Positions 14,255 to 25,191 of a stretch of DNA of 64,000 bases are shown here, in pieces. Position 1 is the first letter of the stretch, and each line of letters begins with the position of its first letter. The stretch is from Microbacterium sp. SLBN-146 (GTDB taxonomy: Bacteria; Actinomycetota; Actinomycetes; Actinomycetales; Microbacteriaceae). Location: assembly GCF_006715145.1 (NCBI RefSeq), contig NZ_VFMR01000001.1, positions 2,170,001 to 2,234,000 on the forward strand, given 5' to 3'. The position numbers and the translations under genes are program-made. The notes under the pieces are model-generated. The model saw only the letters and a program-made list of their open reading frames with translations, was not told the DNA's origin and made no database searches.

Positions 14255-14956
14255 ATGACCGATCTCATCGACACCACCGAGATGTATCTGCGCACGATCC
14301 TCGAGCTCGAGGAGGAGCAGATCCAGCCGCTGCGTGCGCGGATCTCGGAGCGTCTGGGGCACTCGGGTCCGACCGTGTCGCAGACGGTGGGGCGCATGGA
14401 GCGCGACGGTCTCGTCGTCGTGTCCGACGACCGGACGCTTCAGCTCACCGATGCCGGTCGCCAGAAGGCCATCGACGTCATGCGCAAGCACCGTCTCGCC
14501 GAACGCCTCCTCTCCGATGTCATCGGGCTCGACTGGGCGTATGTCCACGAAGAGGCGTGCCGGTGGGAGCACGTCATGAGCGAGCAGGTGGAGCGCCGCC
14601 TCATCGAGCTTCTGGGGCACCCGACCGAGTCGCCGTACGGCAACCCGATCCCCGGTCTCGACCAGCTCGGAGACGTGCCCGCGAACAACTTCGACCAGGG
14701 CGTCGTCGGTCTCGTCGCCAAGCTCAACGCCGCGGGCGAGCCGATCTCTGGCACCGTTCGTCGCCTCGCTGAGCCGGCCCAAGTCGACCCCGAACTGCTG
14801 CAGCAGCTCAAGAGTGCGGGTGTCCTTCCCGGAGCCAGCGGCGACTACCGCTACAACGAGGGTTACGTCCTCGTGCAGATGCACGGCAACGACGAAGGGC
14901 TCGAACTTCCCGTCGAGCTGGCATCCCATATCTTCCTCGTCGACGAGGTTCGCTGA
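14255..14956 (+). CDS. DtxR/IdeR-type metal-dependent regulator
   Basis: 233 residues, standard for the three-domain family. An N-terminal winged helix (MYLRTILELEEE, then GHSGPTVSQTVGRMERDGLV) is followed by a metal-binding dimerisation domain (HRLAERLLSDVIGLDWAYVHEEACRWEHVMS) with the expected Met, Cys, Glu and His ligand positions, and by a C-terminal SH3-like domain. It should repress iron-uptake genes, or regulate manganese genes, when metal-loaded. The ligand Cys in EEACRWEH favours an IdeR/DtxR iron sensor over MntR, but this is an inference. Confidence 0.92.
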   Translation: MTDLIDTTEMYLRTILELEEEQIQPLRARISERLGHSGPTVSQTVGRMERDGLVVVSDDRTLQLTDAGRQKAIDVMRKHRLAERLLSDVIGLDWAYVHEEACRWEHVMSEQVERRLIELLGHPTESPYGNPIPGLDQLGDVPANNFDQGVVGLVAKLNAAGEPISGTVRRLAEPAQVDPELLQQLKSAGVLPGASGDYRYNEGYVLVQMHGNDEGLELPVELASHIFLVDEVR

Positions 14957-15167: not shown

Positions 15168-16073
15168 TTGACTGAAGAGAACGAATCGTCCGCGATCGAG
15201 TCCGAGGTGGACGCCGCCGTCCCCGCACGACGCGATCGCTCGGCAAGAAGTCTCAAGAAGAAGAGTCCCCGCTCACCGCGCCCCGCACGTCCGGCGTCCC
15301 GAACCGCCGTGAGCACCCGAAGCGCCGCGAAGCCCCGAGCTGCCGCAAAACCCCTGCGCAGCTTCGTGATCCTCGCCATGGTCGGCGGACTCGTCGCAAC
15401 CGTCGCGATTCCCGCGTACTCCGCCAGCACGCGCCTTCCCGCTGCGGAAGCGCAGACGCTTCAGCAGAGCGCGGCCGGTGACGCCCAGTCGCTCGTCGTC
15501 GCCTCGAACGCCCTGACGGCGGATCTGTCGCGTCAGAGCTACTCGGCGACGACCGAAGACGAGATCAACAAGAAGAAGGCGGCTGAGGCTGCGGCCGCGG
15601 CGGCAGCAGCGCGTGCACGTGCGCAGGTCTCTTCCGTGGCATCCGTCCCCGTCAACGTCAACCTGGTCTCACCGGGTACGGGGGAGGTGCGCTGGCCGAT
15701 CCTGAACTTCACGAAGGGCCGTGGCCTCGGCGACTCCGGATACCACCAGGGCGTCGACCTGCTCGCCCCGGGCGGAACGCCGCTCTACGCGGCCGCCGCG
15801 GGCGTCGTGCGTATCTCGCAGGAGGCCTACGGCGGATACGGTGTCGCGGTTGTCATCGACCACGTCATCGGCGGACAGCGCGTCTCGACGCTTTACGGCC
15901 ACATGACGTACGGCAGCCGCCAGGTCGTGTCGGGTCAGTCCGTCGAAGCGGGCCAGATCATCGGCCTCGTCGGCAGCACCGGCAGCTCGACCGCCAACCA
16001 CCTCCACTTCGAGGTGCGTATCAACAACGGCATCGTCGACCCCTGGGCCTGGCTCGTCGCCAACGCCGGCTGA
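15168..16073 (+). CDS. M23 (LytM) family peptidoglycan endopeptidase
   Basis: 301 residues. A long basic N-terminus (about 1-60, rich in Arg/Ser/Pro/Ala) precedes one transmembrane or signal helix (SFVILAMVGGLVATVAIPAYSA), an Ala-rich coiled region, and a C-terminal LytM domain. The zinc ligands are visible in YHQGVDLLAPGG (HxxxD) and NHLHFEVR (HxH). It should cleave peptide cross-links of the cell wall outside the membrane. TTG start at 15168 behind GGAGG with 5-bp spacing. The 211-bp leader (14957-15167) is long, as for several actinobacterial cell-wall hydrolases, and may be regulatory. Confidence 0.9.
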   Translation: MTEENESSAIESEVDAAVPARRDRSARSLKKKSPRSPRPARPASRTAVSTRSAAKPRAAAKPLRSFVILAMVGGLVATVAIPAYSASTRLPAAEAQTLQQSAAGDAQSLVVASNALTADLSRQSYSATTEDEINKKKAAEAAAAAAAARARAQVSSVASVPVNVNLVSPGTGEVRWPILNFTKGRGLGDSGYHQGVDLLAPGGTPLYAAAAGVVRISQEAYGGYGVAVVIDHVIGGQRVSTLYGHMTYGSRQVVSGQSVEAGQIIGLVGSTGSSTANHLHFEVRINNGIVDPWAWLVANAG

Positions 16074-16312
16074 TCCGGGCGTCGCTCCGGCCTCGCCCGG
16101 TCGGAGGATGGGCCGTTTGTCGGAGTTTGCGGGCCGGATGGCTCCGACCGGAGTGCGATTCTCCGACCGCCGCACGACCGCCGCGCACGCGCCACGGCTC
16201 CAGAAACGCGGTGCGTTGCCGACACGCAACCGTGCGTTCACCCCGGGAACGACCCTCGTCGGCCGTGCGTGGGTTAGCCTGTTCCCGACTCTGAGAGAAG
16301 CGGAGGGAGCCG

Positions 16313-16423
16313 ATGGGCAGCAGTCCCCGCATTCGAACCACGGATGCATTGGGTCGCCTCGTCCTGCGGCATTGCACGAGCGGATGCCACGGTAGCTCCG
16401 TGGTGCCAAGGCGTTGTCTATAA
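16313..16423 (+). CDS. 36-residue small ORF, possible leader peptide
   Basis: An ATG with a good Shine-Dalgarno sequence (GGAGGGAG, 5 bp upstream) opens a 36-codon frame beginning MGSSPRIRTTDALG and containing three cysteines in its second half. The stop codon TAA (16421-16423) lies in the loop of a strong terminator hairpin at 16408-16438. That placement would let translation affect hairpin formation. Alternatively this is a small RNA and the frame is incidental. I do not recognise the peptide. The HNH endonuclease gene begins 90 bp further on. Confidence 0.45.
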   Translation: MGSSPRIRTTDALGRLVLRHCTSGCHGSSVVPRRCL

Positions 16424-16438
16424 GACAGCGCCTTTTTT
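16408..16438 (+). terminator. Strong rho-independent terminator/attenuator
   Basis: A 12-bp stem (AAGGCGTTGTCT / AGACAGCGCCTT, one T-G pair) with an ATA loop and six T residues. This is the clearest terminator in the window, placed between a short ORF and the HNH gene. Confidence 0.85.
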
Positions 16439-16512
16439 CGTGCCCCGAAGCCGACCTCATCGTCGTAAACGAACAACCGAGAAGCCGTCCCGGCCGTTCG
16501 AGAGGATGAGGA

Positions 16513-17010
16513 ATGCGCACTCTTGTGCTGAATGCGGGGTATGAACCCCTCGCGGTCGTGTCGTTCAAACGAGCCCTCGTGCTCGTCATGAACGAGAAGG
16601 CCACTGTCGTGGAACTCGTCGATGGTGATCCCGTCTGGGCAGCCCGAGGTTCTTACGAGAGACCCGCGGTGATCCTGCTGACCCGATACGTGCGGGTGCC
16701 CGGCGCGCGTCGCGTGCCCGTCACGAGACGCGGGGTGCTGCGGCGCGACGGACACCGGTGCGGCTACTGCGGAAAGGCGGCGTCGACCATCGACCACGTG
16801 CTTCCGCGGTCGCGCGGGGGAGCGGACTCGTGGGAGAACCTCGTCGCGTGTTGCCTGCGGTGCAACAACGTCAAGGGCGATCGCACGCCGCAGGAGATGC
16901 AGTGGGAGCTGCGCCTCAGCCCGCAGCCGCCGCGTGGCGGACAGTGGATGGTGCGCGGAGCCGAGCGTTCCGATCCGCGGTGGGAGCCGTATCTCGCCCT
17001 CGCGGCGTGA
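16513..17010 (+). CDS. HNH endonuclease
   Basis: 165 residues, the common stand-alone actinobacterial HNH protein. The N-terminal half begins MRTLVLNAGYEPLAVVSFKRA, a near-invariant start in this family. The C-terminal half has the zinc and catalytic elements CGYCG, STIDHVLPRSRGG, and CCLRCNNVKGDRT. It should be a metal-dependent DNA nuclease; its cellular role is unknown, and its wide conservation argues against it being a mobile element. It converges with the MarR gene, 6 bp away. Confidence 0.92.
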   Translation: MRTLVLNAGYEPLAVVSFKRALVLVMNEKATVVELVDGDPVWAARGSYERPAVILLTRYVRVPGARRVPVTRRGVLRRDGHRCGYCGKAASTIDHVLPRSRGGADSWENLVACCLRCNNVKGDRTPQEMQWELRLSPQPPRGGQWMVRGAERSDPRWEPYLALAA

Positions 17011-19133: not shown

Positions 19134-19154
19134 CCTGTGGGAATGAGGGGCAGC

Positions 19155-19886
19155 ATGCAGTCGACGGCTACGCGTGCATCCGCTGATGAACTGCAGCGTC
19201 TTCGTGCGCAGGTCGATCGGATGCAGGGGCGCAAGCTCGATGCGCCCGTGCTGCCCGTCGCACCGCCGCTCGCGGAGCTTCTTCCCGGGGGTGGTCTGCG
19301 TCCGGGGGCGGCCTATTCGCTCTCTTCGTCGACGTCGCTCCTGCTCGCGCTTCTCGCACAGGCATCGCAGACGGGATCGTGGTGCGGTGTCGTCGGGATG
19401 CCGCGGCTCGGCGCCGAAGCGGCGGAGTCGATGGGGGTCGACCTGTCGCGGCTCGTGCTCGTTCCCGATCCCGGGCAGCGCTGGCTCGCCGTGACGGCGA
19501 CGATCGCCGACGTGCTGCCCGTCGTGGCCGTGCGTCCGTCGGGGCGCGCGCCCGACGGCGAGATCTCGCGGCTCGCGGGGAGGCTCCGCGAGCGCGGGGC
19601 CGTGCTGCTCGTGCAGGGTCCCTGGCCGCAGGCCGAGGCGGTGCTCGAGGTCGGAGAGCCGGGGTGGGCGGGTCTCGGGCGCGGGCACGGCTACCTCGCG
19701 GAGCGCACGGTCACGGTGACGTCGTCGTCCCGGCGCTGGCCCGTCGCGCGTCGGCGGCGCCTGTTGCTTCCGGATGCCGCGGGCCGGATCGCCGAGGCGC
19801 CGTCGCTGCTCTCGCGGGTCGAGCCGCGGCCCGAGGTGGTGGCCGATCCTGCCGAGCGCCGTGACGTGTGGTCGAAGGCGGGATAG
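19155..19886 (+). CDS. ImuA-type SOS mutasome protein
   Basis: About 243 residues, related to the RecA-like ImuA' family that accompanies ImuB and DnaE2. Recognisable segments are LPVAPPLAELLPGGGLRPGAAYSL and the following core strand/helix. There is no good Walker A motif, as in actinobacterial ImuA'. Its role in error-prone lesion bypass is through interaction with ImuB. I prefer ATG 19155, which has GAGGGG 4 bp upstream; ATG 19143 and GTG 19137 are alternatives in the same frame. Controlled by the LexA box. The imuB gene follows directly. Confidence 0.82.
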   Translation: MQSTATRASADELQRLRAQVDRMQGRKLDAPVLPVAPPLAELLPGGGLRPGAAYSLSSSTSLLLALLAQASQTGSWCGVVGMPRLGAEAAESMGVDLSRLVLVPDPGQRWLAVTATIADVLPVVAVRPSGRAPDGEISRLAGRLRERGAVLLVQGPWPQAEAVLEVGEPGWAGLGRGHGYLAERTVTVTSSSRRWPVARRRRLLLPDAAGRIAEAPSLLSRVEPRPEVVADPAERRDVWSKAG

Positions 19887-19888
19887 CC

Positions 19889-21574
19889 GTGGCCGTCGAT
19901 GCACCCGAGCGGAGCCTCGTGCTGTGGTTCCCCGACTGGCCCGTCACGGCGCTCACGCGAGCCGCCGCGACGGAGGCTCCGACGCGCACGTCTGCGGGGG
20001 GTCGGGGGAGGCGGGCATCCGGCACGACGGCGGGGTCGTCGTCCGACAGGCCGGAGCCGCTCGACCCCCGGCTTCCGATCGCGGTCGTCGAGGCGAACCA
20101 GGTCGTCGCCTGCTCGGCGGCGGCGCGGGCTGACGGCGTGCGGCGGGGGCAACGGCGGCGCGACGCGCAGGCGCGGTGTCCGGCGCTGCGGATCGTGCCG
20201 GCCGACATCGCCCGCGACCAGCGCGCCTTCGCGCCGCTCATCGCGGCAATCGAGGACCGGGCGCCCGGTGTGCAGCTCGTGCGGCCGGGGCTCTGCGCCC
20301 TCCGTGCCCGCGGACCGGCCCGCTACTACGGCGGCGAGGAGCAGTCGGCGCGCGTGCTCGTCGAGGCGCTGCGGGGTCTCGGGATCGAGGATGTGCGGGC
20401 GGGGATCGCCGACGGTCCCTTCACGGCCGAGCAAGCCGCGACGGCCGGCTCGACCGCGAGGGAGCCGGTCTTCATCGTGCCCGCGGGTGGGGCGGCAGGC
20501 TTCCTCGCGCCGCTGTCGGTGAGCGTGCTTGACTCGACGGCGCTCGCGGCGGTCGCCCCGCCGAAGGGCGGACGCACCTCGGCGAGCGACGACCTCGTCG
20601 GACTCCTCGCGCGCCTCGGGGTCCAGACGCTTGGCGCGTTCGCCGCGATGCCCGAGGAGCGGGTGCGAGAGAGGTTCGGGCCACGCGGCATCCGTCTTCA
20701 CGACCTCGCGGCCGGAAGCGATTCGCGTCCCGTACAGCCACGCACCCCGCCGCCCGAGCTGCATCGCGAAGTGGCGTTCGAGCCGCCCGTCGAGATCGCC
20801 GACCAGGTGGCGTTCGGCATGCGCGTCGCCGCCGACGATTTCATCCAGGGTCTCGGCGCGATCGACCTCGTGTGCACCGAGCTGCGCGTCGAGCTCGTGG
20901 GCGACCGGGGCGAACGCAGCGAGCGGGTGTGGCTGCATCCGGCGTCGTTCGACTCCGCCGCGATCGTCGACCGCGTGAGGTGGCAGCTCGGCGAAGACGC
21001 GGAGGGCCTGCGGAGCGGTGTGACGCTCGTGCGGATCTCTCCCGAGGCGGTGGATGCGGCATCCCATCACCGTCCCGCGATCTTCGGATCGGGGCCGGAA
21101 GAGCGGGTGCACCACGCCCTCTCGCGCGTGCAGGCGATGCTCGGGCATCGGGCCGTCGTGACGCCCGAGATCGGCGGAGGGCGCTGGCTCACCGAGCGGC
21201 AGGTGCTCGTGCCGTGGGGTGACCGGGTCGTGCTCGCGAAGGAGCGGGGGCGTCCGTGGCCGGGGAGCCTTCCCGACCCGCTGCCGACGACCGTGTTCGC
21301 CGAGCCGCCGACGGTCGAGGTGACGACGCTCGGAGGGTATGCCGTCGAGATCGACGAGCGCGGCGCTCTCTCAGCGGCGCCGGGTGTGCTCGTCGAGGGC
21401 GGCAGGCGGCGGGCGATCGAGTCGTGGGCGGGTCCGTGGCCGATCGTCGAGCGCAGCTGGGACCCCGTCCGCGCGCGCCGGGCGCATCGGTTCCAGGTCG
21501 TCGATGCCGACGGGGCCGCGTGGCTCCTCGTCTGCGAGAACGGCGGCTGGACGATCGAGGGGGCATACGACTGA
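19889..21574 (+). CDS. imuB: ImuB, Y-family polymerase-like mutasome hub
   Basis: 561 residues. The N-terminal Y-family fold begins LVLWFPDWPVTALTRA, and the palm lacks the paired acidic residues of active Y polymerases, as expected for ImuB, which is a non-catalytic hub. It should link the beta clamp, ImuA and DnaE2 during SOS mutagenesis. A little-finger-like region and a C-terminal disordered segment with RRRAIESWAGPWPIVERSWD follow; this Trp-rich tail is characteristic of ImuB. GTG start 19889 (GTG 19868 is possible). The stop overlaps the dnaE2 start (TGATG), so the genes are translationally coupled. Confidence 0.88.
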   Translation: MAVDAPERSLVLWFPDWPVTALTRAAATEAPTRTSAGGRGRRASGTTAGSSSDRPEPLDPRLPIAVVEANQVVACSAAARADGVRRGQRRRDAQARCPALRIVPADIARDQRAFAPLIAAIEDRAPGVQLVRPGLCALRARGPARYYGGEEQSARVLVEALRGLGIEDVRAGIADGPFTAEQAATAGSTAREPVFIVPAGGAAGFLAPLSVSVLDSTALAAVAPPKGGRTSASDDLVGLLARLGVQTLGAFAAMPEERVRERFGPRGIRLHDLAAGSDSRPVQPRTPPPELHREVAFEPPVEIADQVAFGMRVAADDFIQGLGAIDLVCTELRVELVGDRGERSERVWLHPASFDSAAIVDRVRWQLGEDAEGLRSGVTLVRISPEAVDAASHHRPAIFGSGPEERVHHALSRVQAMLGHRAVVTPEIGGGRWLTERQVLVPWGDRVVLAKERGRPWPGSLPDPLPTTVFAEPPTVEVTTLGGYAVEIDERGALSAAPGVLVEGGRRRAIESWAGPWPIVERSWDPVRARRAHRFQVVDADGAAWLLVCENGGWTIEGAYD

Positions 21575-24500
21575 TGGGGTTCAACAACCCGTCGGTGCCG
21601 TGGGCCGAGCTCGAGAGGGTGCTCAGCGATCGGCGGCGACCCACTGAGATCCCTACGGGCGCGAACGGCGGCGACAGTCCCGCGTGGTCGCGCAAGCGTG
21701 GTCCGTACGTGCCGGTGCCGATCGAGCGTCCCGTCGACGCCGTGCCGTATGCCGAACTGCACGCGCATTCGTCGTACTCGTTCCTCGACGGAGCCTCCTC
21801 GCCCGAAGAGCTCGCCGAGGAGGCCGAGGCGCTCGGGCTGCACGCGCTCGCCGTCACCGACCACGACGGCTTCTACGGCATCGTGCGGTTCGCCGAGGCC
21901 GCCGAGTCACTCCAGCTCAAGACGGTGTTCGGCGCCGAACTCTCGCTCGGGCATCAAGACCGGTCGCCGACTCCGCAGCGGAGGGGCGAGGCCGACCCGC
22001 TCGGATCCCACCTGCTCGTGCTCGCCCGCGGCGAAGAGGGATACCACCGGCTCGCGGGAGCCATCACGCACGCGCAGCTCCGCGGTGCCGAAAAGGGGCG
22101 GCCGCTCTACGACCTCGACGAGCTCGCCGATCAGCTGGGCGAGCACGCCGTGATCCTGACGGGATGCCGCAAGGGCAGCGTCCGTCGCGCGCTCGCCGCC
22201 GCAGGGCCCGAGGCGGCCGCCGACGAACTCGACCTGCTCGTGCAGCGCTTCGGCCGCGATGCCGTGCACGTCGAGCTGTTCGATCACGGCAATCCACTCG
22301 ATACGCGCGAGAACGACCTGCTCGCCGCGATTGCCCGCGAACGGGGACTGCCGCTCGTCGCGACGAACAACGTGCACTACTCGGTGCCCAAGCGGCAGCT
22401 GCTCGCGGCAGCCGTCGCCGCGGTCCGCGCCAATCGCGGGCTCGACGAGCTCGACGGGTGGCTTCCCGTCCACTCGGGTGCGCACCTGCGGTCAGGACTC
22501 GAGATGGTGGAGCGGTTCGCGCGGCATCCCGATGCCGTCGCCCGCACGGTTCCCCTCGCCGACGAGATCGCCTTTTCGCTGCGGCGTGCGAAGCCCGCGC
22601 TGCCGAAGCAGGAGGTTCCCGAGGGGCACACGCCGATGACGTGGCTGCGGCACCTCGTGTGGGAGGCTGTGCCCCGCAAGTACCCCGACCTGAAGGACGA
22701 AGACCGGGAGCGCATCGAGCGCGAGCTCGGAGTCATCGAGCTGAAGGACTTTCCGGGGTACTTCCTCATCGTGCACGGGATCGTGCAGGAGGCCCGGCGC
22801 CGCGGCATCCTGTGTCAGGGGCGCGGATCCGCCGCCAACAGCGCCATCTGCTACCTGCTCGACATCACGGCGGTCGATGCGATCGCCTACCGGTTGCCGT
22901 TCGAGCGGTTCCTGTCGTCGCTGCGCGATGAGGAGCCCGACATCGATGTCGACTTCGACTCCGACCGGCGCGAAGAGATCATCCAGTGGGTGTACGAGAA
23001 GTACGGGCGCGATCGGGCCGCGCAGGTGGCGAACGTCATCCAGTACCGGCCGAAGAACGCCGTCCGCGACATGGCGAAGGCGCTCGGGCACTCGCCCGGC
23101 CAGCAGGACGCGTGGTCGAAGCAGGTCGACCGGTGGAGCGGCGGTTTCGATACCGGCTCAGTCGGGGGAAAGCACGACACGAGCCACGACATCCCGGATC
23201 GGGTGATCGAGTTCGCCGCGGAGCTGCTGAAGGCGCCGCGGCATCTCGGGATCCACTCGGGCGGCATGGTGCTCACCGACCGGCCCGTCGGCGAAGTCGT
23301 GCCGATCGAGCACGCGCGCATGGAGAACCGCACGGTCATCCAGTGGGACAAAGACGACGCCGCGTGGATGGGGCTCGTCAAGTTCGATCTGCTGGGGCTC
23401 GGGATGCTGGCAGCGTTGCAGTACTGCTTCGACATGATCCGCGAGTCGACGGGTGAGGACTGGGAGCTGTCGACCCTGCCGAAGGAGGAGCAGGGCGTCT
23501 ACGACATGCTGTGCCGTGCGGATTCGATCGGGGTGTTCCAGGTCGAGTCGCGCGCGCAGATGGGGTTGTTGCCACGCCTGCAGCCTCGGCAGTACTACGA
23601 CCTCGTGGTCGAGATCGCGCTCATCCGGCCGGGGCCGATCCAGGGTGGCGCGGTGCATCCGTTCGTCCGGCGCAAGCTCGGCCACGAGAAGGTGACGTAC
23701 CCGCATCCGAAGCTCGAGCCGGTGCTCGAGCGCACGCTCGGGGTGCCGGTGTTCCAGGAGCAGCTCATGCAGATGGCGGTCGCGATCGGTGAGGTGAGTG
23801 GTGAGGATGCCGACCTCTTGCGTCGTGCGATGGGGTCGAAGCGCGGGGTGGAGCGCATCGAGTCGCTCAAACAGAAGCTGTATGAGGGCATGGCGAAGAA
23901 CGGCCTGGTGGGCGATGATGCCGATGCGATCTATGCGAAGATCCAGGCGTTCGCGAACTTCGGTTTCGCCGAGTCGCACTCGCTGTCGTTCGGTCTGCTC
24001 GTCTACGCGAGTTCGTGGATCAAGCTGCACTATCCGGGTGCGTTCCTCGCGGGTCTGCTGCGCGCCCAGCCGATGGGCTTCTACTCACCCGCGACTCTCG
24101 TCGCCGACGCCCGCCGCCACGGCGTCGAGGTCCGCCGCCCCGACCTCCACCTCTCGGGCGTGGAGGCCCTCCTCGAGCCCGTCGCCGATGAGCCCGCCGC
24201 CCCACCAGACGAGCACGTTTCCGCTGGTCGAGTAGCCGGCGCAGCCGGCGTATCGAGACCCGCCCCCACGTACGAGGCCGCCCCCGACGCCCCCACCAAC
24301 GAAGCCGGCACCCCAACCGCTGGTCGAGTAGCCGGCGCAGCCGGCGTATCGAGACCCGCCCCCACGTACGAAGCCAAACCACCCCCCACCGGCATGCCGT
24401 CCTGCACCCACCGCATCCAACCCCCCGTCCCTCCGTTCGACCCCAACACCCCCGACGACACCGCCGCCCACCGCCGCGACGGCGCGTTCGCCGTCCGCCT

Positions 24501-25191
24501 CGGCCTCGCCGGGGTCAAGGGCATCGGTGCGAAGGTCGCCGAGCGGATCGTGTCCGAAAGGGATGCCGCGGGCCCGTACCGCGATCTTCGCGACCTCGTC
24601 CGCCGCACGGGTGTCACGGGCCCGCAGCTCGAAGCGCTCGCCACTGCCGGCGCGTTCGACTGCCTCGGCATCGCCCGGCGCGAGGCGATCTGGCTCGCCG
24701 GCGCTGCCGCACAGGACCGCGTCGAATTCCTGCCCGACTCACTCGTGTCGGTGCAGCCGCCGTTGTTCACCGACCCGTCGAGCTACGACACACTCGCCGC
24801 CGACCTGTGGGCGACGGGCATCTCGGTCGACGACCATCCGATGACGCACTACCGTTCGGCGCTCGATGCGCGGGGTGTGCTGACGTCGCGCGAGCTGAGG
24901 TCGCACGAGAGTGGCCGGCGGGTCGAGGTCGCGGGGCTCGTGACTCACCGGCAGCGGCCGGCGACGGCATCCGGAATCACGTTCATCAACCTCGAAGACG
25001 AGCACGGTCTCGTGAACGTCATCTGCTCGGTGGGGGTGTGGAACCGCTACCGCCGGGTCGTGCGGGATTCACCGGCGCTCATCGTGCGGGGACTGCTGGA
25101 GCGGTCGATCGAGGGGGTGACGAATCTCGTGGCCGACCGGTTCGACGATCTGCGGGTGGGGGTGCACCACAACTCGCGGGACTTCCGTTAA
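21574..25191 (+). CDS. dnaE2: Error-prone DNA polymerase III alpha subunit DnaE2
   Basis: 1205 residues, about 100 longer than usual. Order: PHP domain (from about 58; YAELHAHSSYSFLDGASS), palm and finger domains (RGSAANSAICYLLD; catalytic Asp pair in PDIDVDFDSDRREEI at about 455), the thumb/helical region, and a C-terminal OB fold (VEVAGLVTHRQRPATASGITF). It copies past lesions at low fidelity in the SOS response and works with ImuA and ImuB. About residues 870-960 are an added Ala/Pro-rich segment. It contains two in-frame copies of a palindromic repeat that is normally intergenic in this group, see 24223-24275 and 24319-24371. Confidence 0.95.
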   Translation: MGFNNPSVPWAELERVLSDRRRPTEIPTGANGGDSPAWSRKRGPYVPVPIERPVDAVPYAELHAHSSYSFLDGASSPEELAEEAEALGLHALAVTDHDGFYGIVRFAEAAESLQLKTVFGAELSLGHQDRSPTPQRRGEADPLGSHLLVLARGEEGYHRLAGAITHAQLRGAEKGRPLYDLDELADQLGEHAVILTGCRKGSVRRALAAAGPEAAADELDLLVQRFGRDAVHVELFDHGNPLDTRENDLLAAIARERGLPLVATNNVHYSVPKRQLLAAAVAAVRANRGLDELDGWLPVHSGAHLRSGLEMVERFARHPDAVARTVPLADEIAFSLRRAKPALPKQEVPEGHTPMTWLRHLVWEAVPRKYPDLKDEDRERIERELGVIELKDFPGYFLIVHGIVQEARRRGILCQGRGSAANSAICYLLDITAVDAIAYRLPFERFLSSLRDEEPDIDVDFDSDRREEIIQWVYEKYGRDRAAQVANVIQYRPKNAVRDMAKALGHSPGQQDAWSKQVDRWSGGFDTGSVGGKHDTSHDIPDRVIEFAAELLKAPRHLGIHSGGMVLTDRPVGEVVPIEHARMENRTVIQWDKDDAAWMGLVKFDLLGLGMLAALQYCFDMIRESTGEDWELSTLPKEEQGVYDMLCRADSIGVFQVESRAQMGLLPRLQPRQYYDLVVEIALIRPGPIQGGAVHPFVRRKLGHEKVTYPHPKLEPVLERTLGVPVFQEQLMQMAVAIGEVSGEDADLLRRAMGSKRGVERIESLKQKLYEGMAKNGLVGDDADAIYAKIQAFANFGFAESHSLSFGLLVYASSWIKLHYPGAFLAGLLRAQPMGFYSPATLVADARRHGVEVRRPDLHLSGVEALLEPVADEPAAPPDEHVSAGRVAGAAGVSRPAPTYEAAPDAPTNEAGTPTAGRVAGAAGVSRPAPTYEAKPPPTGMPSCTHRIQPPVPPFDPNTPDDTAAHRRDGAFAVRLGLAGVKGIGAKVAERIVSERDAAGPYRDLRDLVRRTGVTGPQLEALATAGAFDCLGIARREAIWLAGAAAQDRVEFLPDSLVSVQPPLFTDPSSYDTLAADLWATGISVDDHPMTHYRSALDARGVLTSRELRSHESGRRVEVAGLVTHRQRPATASGITFINLEDEHGLVNVICSVGVWNRYRRVVRDSPALIVRGLLERSIEGVTNLVADRFDDLRVGVHHNSRDFR
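24223..24275 (+). repeat. Palindromic repeat inside dnaE2, family B copy 1
   Basis: 53-bp unit: GCTGGTCGAGTAGCCGGC, then GCAGCCGGCGTATCGAGACC, then CGCCCCCACGTACGA. The core is an inverted repeat (GGTCGA...TCGAGACC around GCCGGC-GCA-GCCGGC). It is in frame and codes for AGRVAGAAGVSRPAPTYE. Such GGTCGAGTAG...TATCGAGACC elements are common intergenic repeats in Microbacteriaceae as I remember them. Confidence 0.85.
24319..24371 (+). repeat. Palindromic repeat inside dnaE2, family B copy 2
   Basis: Copy of the 24223 unit, identical over the 53 bp read here, starting 96 bp (32 codons) later and therefore in the same frame. Between the copies lies an Ala/Pro/Thr-rich linker (APDAPTNEAGTPT). The reading frame is kept throughout, so the host gene remains open. 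Confidence 0.85.

Follow-up and report, generated by a model that had tools for sequence, protein, structure and literature searches.

Leader-peptide attenuation is best known from amino-acid and antibiotic-response genes. In actinobacteria, leader ORFs that overlap terminators have been described upstream of ilvB (PMC1262725; PMC10272879). The locus of Microbacterium sp. SLBN-146 studied here resembles these leaders, including the Corynebacterium ilvB-II motif, in that a short leader ORF runs at its end into an intrinsic terminator that precedes the controlled gene. It differs from them in that the target is a nuclease, the peptide has no general run of a single amino acid and is conserved in its N-terminal part, and there is a further hairpin at the Shine-Dalgarno sequence of the gene. 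A nuclease would be added in this way to the targets of leader-peptide attenuation.

A second group of described systems is relevant to the gene product. In IsrB, the PLMP domain is in contact with the hairpins at the end of the omegaRNA; the Shine-Dalgarno sequence of the gene lies in one of them, and a role in controlling expression was suggested by the authors (PMC9581776). In IscB, PLMP recognises the terminal omegaRNA hairpins mainly without sequence preference (PMC9640706). Our locus shares with IsrB/IscB loci (HEARO, RF02033) a PLMP protein, an HNH domain (as in IscB), a structured RNA directly 5' and a terminal hairpin at the Shine-Dalgarno sequence. Unlike them, it has no RuvC domain, no HEARO match and a different hairpin loop, and its leader contains an ORF and a terminator; moreover, most genomes carry a single full-length gene, which occupies a fixed position in the chromosome. 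Hence, the link between PLMP, the hairpin at the gene and IsrB/IscB is drawn by analogy. Similar in architecture are the IshB-like proteins, with PLMP plus HNH in about 165-180 aa. Such proteins have been named as possible HNH-domain donors (PMC12477157). A conserved leader RNA, present here, was not found for IshB-like proteins in searches of the open-access literature. Nor did that literature yield a description of the leader element or of hairpin 3; since subscription papers lay mostly outside its scope, this is weak evidence of novelty.

We consider it fairly probable, from comparative sequence analysis, that the leader of the HNH mRNA acts as a translation-coupled transcription attenuator, with hairpin 3 as a second checkpoint. 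The features of the locus are the following:

16275-16280, + strand: -10-like box TAGCCT of the putative leader promoter, from TANNNT enrichment 5' of the leader.
16302-16308, + strand: Shine-Dalgarno sequence GGAGGGA of the leader ORF, read from the sequence, with the ATG 4 nt further 3'.
16309-16312 and 16367-16370, + strand: helix P1, GCCG (between Shine-Dalgarno and ATG) paired with CGGC in the MFE fold of the leader.
16313-16423, + strand: leader ORF, ATG start, 36 codons, TAA stop; peptide MGSSPRIRTTDALGRLVLRHCTSGCHGSSVVPRRCL.
16329-16347, + strand: hairpin 1 (GCATTC-GAACCAC-GGATGC), within the ORF, from covariation.
16387-16403, + strand: hairpin 2 (CCACGG-TAGCT-CCGTGG), in the MFE fold and absent from the RNAalifold consensus of alignment A2.
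16408-16438, + strand: intrinsic terminator, 12-bp stem 16408-16434 with 3-nt loop, TTTTTT 16433-16438, leader stop in the loop.
16470-16500, + strand: hairpin 3, outer CGAA/TTCG, inner CCGaGA-AGCCG-TCcCGG, adjoining the Shine-Dalgarno sequence of the HNH gene, from covariation.
16500-16506, + strand: Shine-Dalgarno sequence GAGAGGA of the HNH gene, conserved in alignments A3 and A4.
16513-17010, + strand: HNH gene, 165 aa, PLMP-like domain at residues 1-63 and HNH domain at 64-141.

The arrangement is that of a leader-ORF attenuator, with a promoter-like box 5' of a coding-constrained ORF and a terminator between ORF and gene, placed where a ribosome would affect it. An initial annotation of the window (the whole 64-kb stretch analysed) had pointed to a 36-codon ORF with a well-placed Shine-Dalgarno and ATG, and to a TAA inside the loop of the strongest terminator of the window. 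The ORF and its signals are real, and the terminator is the one hairpin to come through a strict scan of the 64 kb (at least 7 stem pairs, at least 6 T in 8). The position of the stop was right to within one base, as the TAA at 16421-16423 takes up two of the three loop bases and extends one base into the 3' arm. The annotation had also named conservation of peptide and hairpin in Microbacteriaceae as a check, and both proved conserved, as seen in coding constraint, stop geometry and covariation.

The position of the stop was examined by choosing the start solely by codon type and Shine-Dalgarno and then locating the stop of that frame. Among 70 Microbacterium ORFs, the stop falls within the hairpin in 64 and past it in 2, and the remaining 4 stay open up to the gene. 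Read from the same starts, frames +1 and +2 put no stop within the hairpin (0/70 each), and 3 and 8 stops, respectively, at its base. For other Microbacteriaceae (n=65), 27 ORFs stop at the hairpin base and 15 inside (42/65), compared with 15/65 and 8/65 at base or inside in the two remaining frames; the other 23 run past the hairpin (10), lack a stop before the gene (10) or stop early (3). A start with Shine-Dalgarno was absent in 10 of 75 non-Microbacterium loci. These counts indicate that the stop-in-hairpin geometry is kept beyond chance, but is not universal outside Microbacterium. The ribosome covers at most 12 nt 3' of a stop codon (PMC4833913), so a ribosome at the leader stop would mask the hairpin.

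The terminator itself is well conserved, with 98.0% of cells paired over 58 leaders and changes on both sides in 7 of 11 pairs. Its stem sequence, GGC(G/A)(C/T)(T/C)GTC, is kept across genera, even where the ORF stops before the hairpin, whereas drift would be expected of ordinary terminators. The own genome holds one further site with the stem pattern of the terminator, in a sequence without a T-run. A different layout was seen in the order-level family f15 (L148-L152, L156, L160), where the ORF crosses a similar hairpin, devoid of a T-run, to reach the gene start, and carries His runs such as HHHVHHHH. This layout looks like translational coupling in place of termination.

The leader is widespread in the genus: DNA of 16261-16440 was matched in 128 of 149 same-genus genomes, as a single match in 126 of those 128. 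For comparison we used 80 loci retrieved via the HNH protein, nearly all named Microbacterium or other Microbacteriaceae; one (L024), whose contig stops short of the leader, was excluded from the first alignment. In Microbacterium, the leader peptide follows the consensus M(D/E)xxPxIRTxDALGRxVLRH while codon third positions vary. Amino-acid identity over codons 5-20 is 0.812, against 0.666 +/- 0.036 with the column order shuffled (maximum 0.806 in 500 shuffles; 63 Microbacterium-type rows, 55 distinct, 7 of 80 rows dropped). The reading frame has a pN/pS of 0.48 over codons 2-20 (Microbacterium, 61 rows), as against 1.29 and 1.27 for the two alternative frames. In the same rows, codons 21-30 give 1.11. 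Hence, the first twenty codons are constrained as peptide and the remainder is merely kept open; codons 21-30, with no amino-acid conservation, seem to serve only to bring the ribosome into the terminator. Insertions in this part of the ORF leave the frame intact in three loci (L031, L037, L038). In other genera, the peptide often contains I(H/Q/R)(T/S)xDAR and (H/R)SS(Q/R), and the HSSQ motif occurs in 16 of 65 loci, its Ser codons alternating between AGC, TCC and TCG. Nothing convincing was found for the peptide in Pfam or NCBIfam. At class level, the leader could not be made out, so the HNH gene does not need it everywhere.

Upstream of the leader start, TANNNT boxes are strongly enriched. 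In the interval 20-60 nt 5' of the start, they are present in 47/47 Microbacterium loci tested (8.3 expected) and in 58/60 loci of other Microbacteriaceae (19.2 expected), and sit mostly 37-47 nt away. Between the terminator and hairpin 3, no enrichment was found (4/47, 4.9 expected, and 2/58 intervals, 11.0 expected). With a box 5' of the leader and none enriched after the terminator, the HNH mRNA must probably read through the terminator, and the HNH gene seems to depend on the leader promoter. The same facts bear on the view that the leader is a separate small gene with its own promoter, small-protein ORF and terminator, the HNH gene being transcribed independently. Such a gene would explain why promoter-like box, Shine-Dalgarno, ORF and terminator all belong to the unit itself and why codons 2-20 are conserved. 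It fits poorly with the relaxed codons 21-30, with a C-terminal frame that differs among species, and with the missing enrichment of the box in front of the HNH gene; we consider it unlikely. Nearly all leaders were retrieved via the HNH gene, and occurrence elsewhere was covered by the genus search alone, with its single match per genome in nearly all cases. Of the two options in the initial annotation, an attenuator or a small RNA, the position of the promoter favours the first and disfavours an independent small-RNA gene.

A classical amino-acid attenuator, in which His or Cys supply would be sensed by codons shortly before the terminator, was also considered. The best case for it comes from the His runs of the f15 loci (12 His in 36 codons in L152) and of L173, L132 and L127. 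A general frame-specific enrichment of His or Cys was not found, and on this account the candidate was rejected: the His share over 65 family loci is 8.3% in frame versus 9.7% in frame 2, and in Microbacterium 6.6% versus 10.7%. Moreover, the target gene is not known to be connected with either amino acid, and the idea is improbable. The Cys content that the initial annotation had singled out is not a conserved signature of the peptide, as Cys stands at codon 21 in 20 of the 55 distinct sequences from Microbacterium.

The leader also carries structure. It folds better than dinucleotide shuffles (z -3.05), and RNAalifold on alignment A2 (57 of the 80 loci plus the window, 58 leaders) yields hairpin 1 and the terminator only, with double changes in 12 of 17 pairs. 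Hairpin 1 has 92.5% of cells paired and changes on both sides in 5 of 6 pairs; for helix P1 the values are 79.7% and all 4 pairs. Taken together, hairpin 1, terminator and P1 pair in 92.9% of cells, with a covariation of 0.306 versus 0.186 shuffled (reached in 0/500) and at most 0.128 when slid. The consensus contains no conserved antiterminator, which would be unnecessary if the terminator is blocked by the ribosome itself. An Rfam scan of 16230-16530 up to E 10 gave no match, HEARO/omegaRNA (RF02033) included. The covariation of hairpin 1 inside the ORF across the family is what one would expect of an RNA-only element, a riboswitch or protein-binding leader whose ORF is a by-product of conserved hairpins. 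The third-position pattern and pN/pS in Microbacterium speak against this, as do the codon switching at the HSSQ serines and the conserved placement of start and stop, and we rate an RNA-only element as quite improbable.

We therefore return to the translation-coupled attenuator, in which read-through control, its sign and its signal are what we infer from the aligned sequences. The -10-like box would place the transcription start near 16287, a short way upstream of the leader ORF. A ribosome that initiates on the leader close behind RNA polymerase would reach the stop within the terminator, the hairpin would not form, and the polymerase would enter the HNH gene. When the leader start is closed by P1 and hairpin 1 around the ATG, or when the ribosome stalls, falls off or trails behind, the terminator would form and a transcript of ~150 nt would be released. 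The conserved peptide part, PxIRTxDALGRxVLRH in Microbacterium, may tune pausing. Hairpin 3 would then set translation of the HNH gene, perhaps via its own product.

On the protein side, Pfam assigns the 165-aa product to HNH families only (PF01844/PF14279). The closest solved structures by sequence are the HNH domains of IscB and of HNH nuclease domain-containing proteins, two of the latter being described as Cas9, one of type II-D. The structure model (pLDDT 87.1, pTM 0.65) matches residues 1-63 to the PLMP of IsrB, a protein without HNH (8dmb_P; Z 6.3, rmsd 2.7, 50 residues), and to the PLMP of OgeuIscB (7xht_A; Z 5.9, rmsd 1.7, 49 residues), and residues 64-141 to Cas9/IscB HNH domains with Z up to 8.3. 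All these Z values are modest, those for PLMP being <8, yet the PLMP match falls on the N-terminal domain of the proteins that one would expect. Residues C83, C86, C114, C117, D94, H95, N109 and N118 are invariant in 40 of 40 aligned homologues, and we take them to be zinc-binding and catalytic. A RuvC domain is absent, the 165 aa being taken up by PLMP and HNH; this architecture was reportedly named IshB by Altae-Tran in 2021, and the product is presumably IshB-like. PADLOC returned generic HNH similarity only (best PtuB, 2.3e-08). Homologues at E 0.001, a count that includes weaker HNH-only matches, were found in 68/80 family, 84/119 order, 101/118 class and 77/100 phylum genomes. A widespread, little-studied actinobacterial nuclease would gain two conserved RNA control elements.

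The second of these elements, hairpin 3, and the PLMP-plus-HNH nature of the product go beyond the initial annotation. Alignments were A3 (61 of the 80 loci plus the window) and A4, the latter without L066, L178, L187, L193, L022, L026, L047, L070, L125 and L137. Covariation of hairpin 3 is 0.326 versus 0.116 shuffled (reached in 0/500) and at most 0.089 when slid, with double changes in 7 of 10 pairs. Its AAGCC core is near-invariant across 52 aligned copies while the stem varies, which argues that hairpin 3 is recognised as RNA rather than as a DNA operator. A covariance model (R1) finds one strong match in the own genome, 16470-16507 at 44.5 bits, the next reaching 18.5. At E 0.01, R1 matched 47 of 80 family genomes (47 of 80 genera), and every one of the 47 best matches is followed by the HNH gene at a distance of 3-9 nt; there were also two second matches at other places, both weak. 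On 53 order- and class-level loci, R1 gave nothing convincing (best E 0.41, inside L225), the model being tuned to Microbacteriaceae.

Class-level hairpins come from a separate search, covering the last 80 nt upstream of the gene, for AGCC[AG] pentaloops closed by 5 or more pairs. Of 62 distinct class-level loci, 17 have such a hairpin, each at a distance of 16-28 nt from the gene; shuffles gave a mean of 0.05 and never more than 1. The counts were 1 of 27 for order-level loci that do not belong to the family and 0 of 22 for loci of other classes. Alignment A5 combines 10 hairpins of the family with 17 of the class (21 distinct rows), and double changes were seen at every one of its 6 pairs; only this variety counts, because class rows were picked for pairing. 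Hairpin 3 had no Rfam match in the 10 related loci scanned, where the hits were tRNA and a c-di-AMP riboswitch only. The latter (RF00379, 57.2 bits, L161:212-382) lies farther upstream of the HNH gene and probably belongs to the preceding gene.

Hairpin 3 probably binds a protein, and the partner is plausibly the PLMP-HNH product itself, in an autoregulatory circuit. A bolder version, tentative and rather doubtful at present, is that Actinomycetes have kept a chromosomal OMEGA relative, in which the PLMP-HNH protein, bound to the AGCC-loop hairpin at the ribosome-binding site of its own gene, makes up a functional RNP with the leader RNA. If true, omegaRNA-guided nucleases could have arisen from the protein-RNA contact that this RNP would preserve, and in Microbacteriaceae the RNP would be wrapped in a leader-peptide attenuator. 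Whether a stand-alone PLMP recognises an RNA hairpin, a question about the origin of RNA-guided nucleases, becomes amenable to a binding assay, with a 31-nt ligand and natural variants at hand. That the leader RNA is itself an omegaRNA-like partner of the nuclease beyond cis-regulation is highly improbable: PLMP plus HNH, a structured RNA directly 5' of the gene and a terminal hairpin adjoining the Shine-Dalgarno as in IsrB would suit it, but there is no HEARO/omegaRNA match and no RuvC, the terminator separates the leader from hairpin 3, and omegaRNA terminal loops differ.

Homology of hairpin 3 to omegaRNA was considered separately and rejected, as the 3' ends of 21 HEARO matches from phylum genomes have no AGCC[AG] hairpin. 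These were 21 of 24 matches (L328, L335 and L336 left out; L327 truncated by the contig end), and the own genome has no HEARO match.

Finally, some observations concern the genomic surroundings. A locus much like that of Microbacterium, with 89% protein identity, occurs in a record titled Planococcus sp. APC 4015 (L003), whose name or assembly is probably wrong. In the window, a DtxR-family metal-dependent regulator (14255-14956) and an M23 peptidase (15168-16073) lie directly upstream on the same strand, and in several order-level loci an apparent peptidase gene ends before the leader. Downstream, 19137-25191 contains two ORFs resembling ImuA' and ImuB by translation, followed by a 1311-aa ORF, which we take to be possibly a damage-inducible mutasome cluster.
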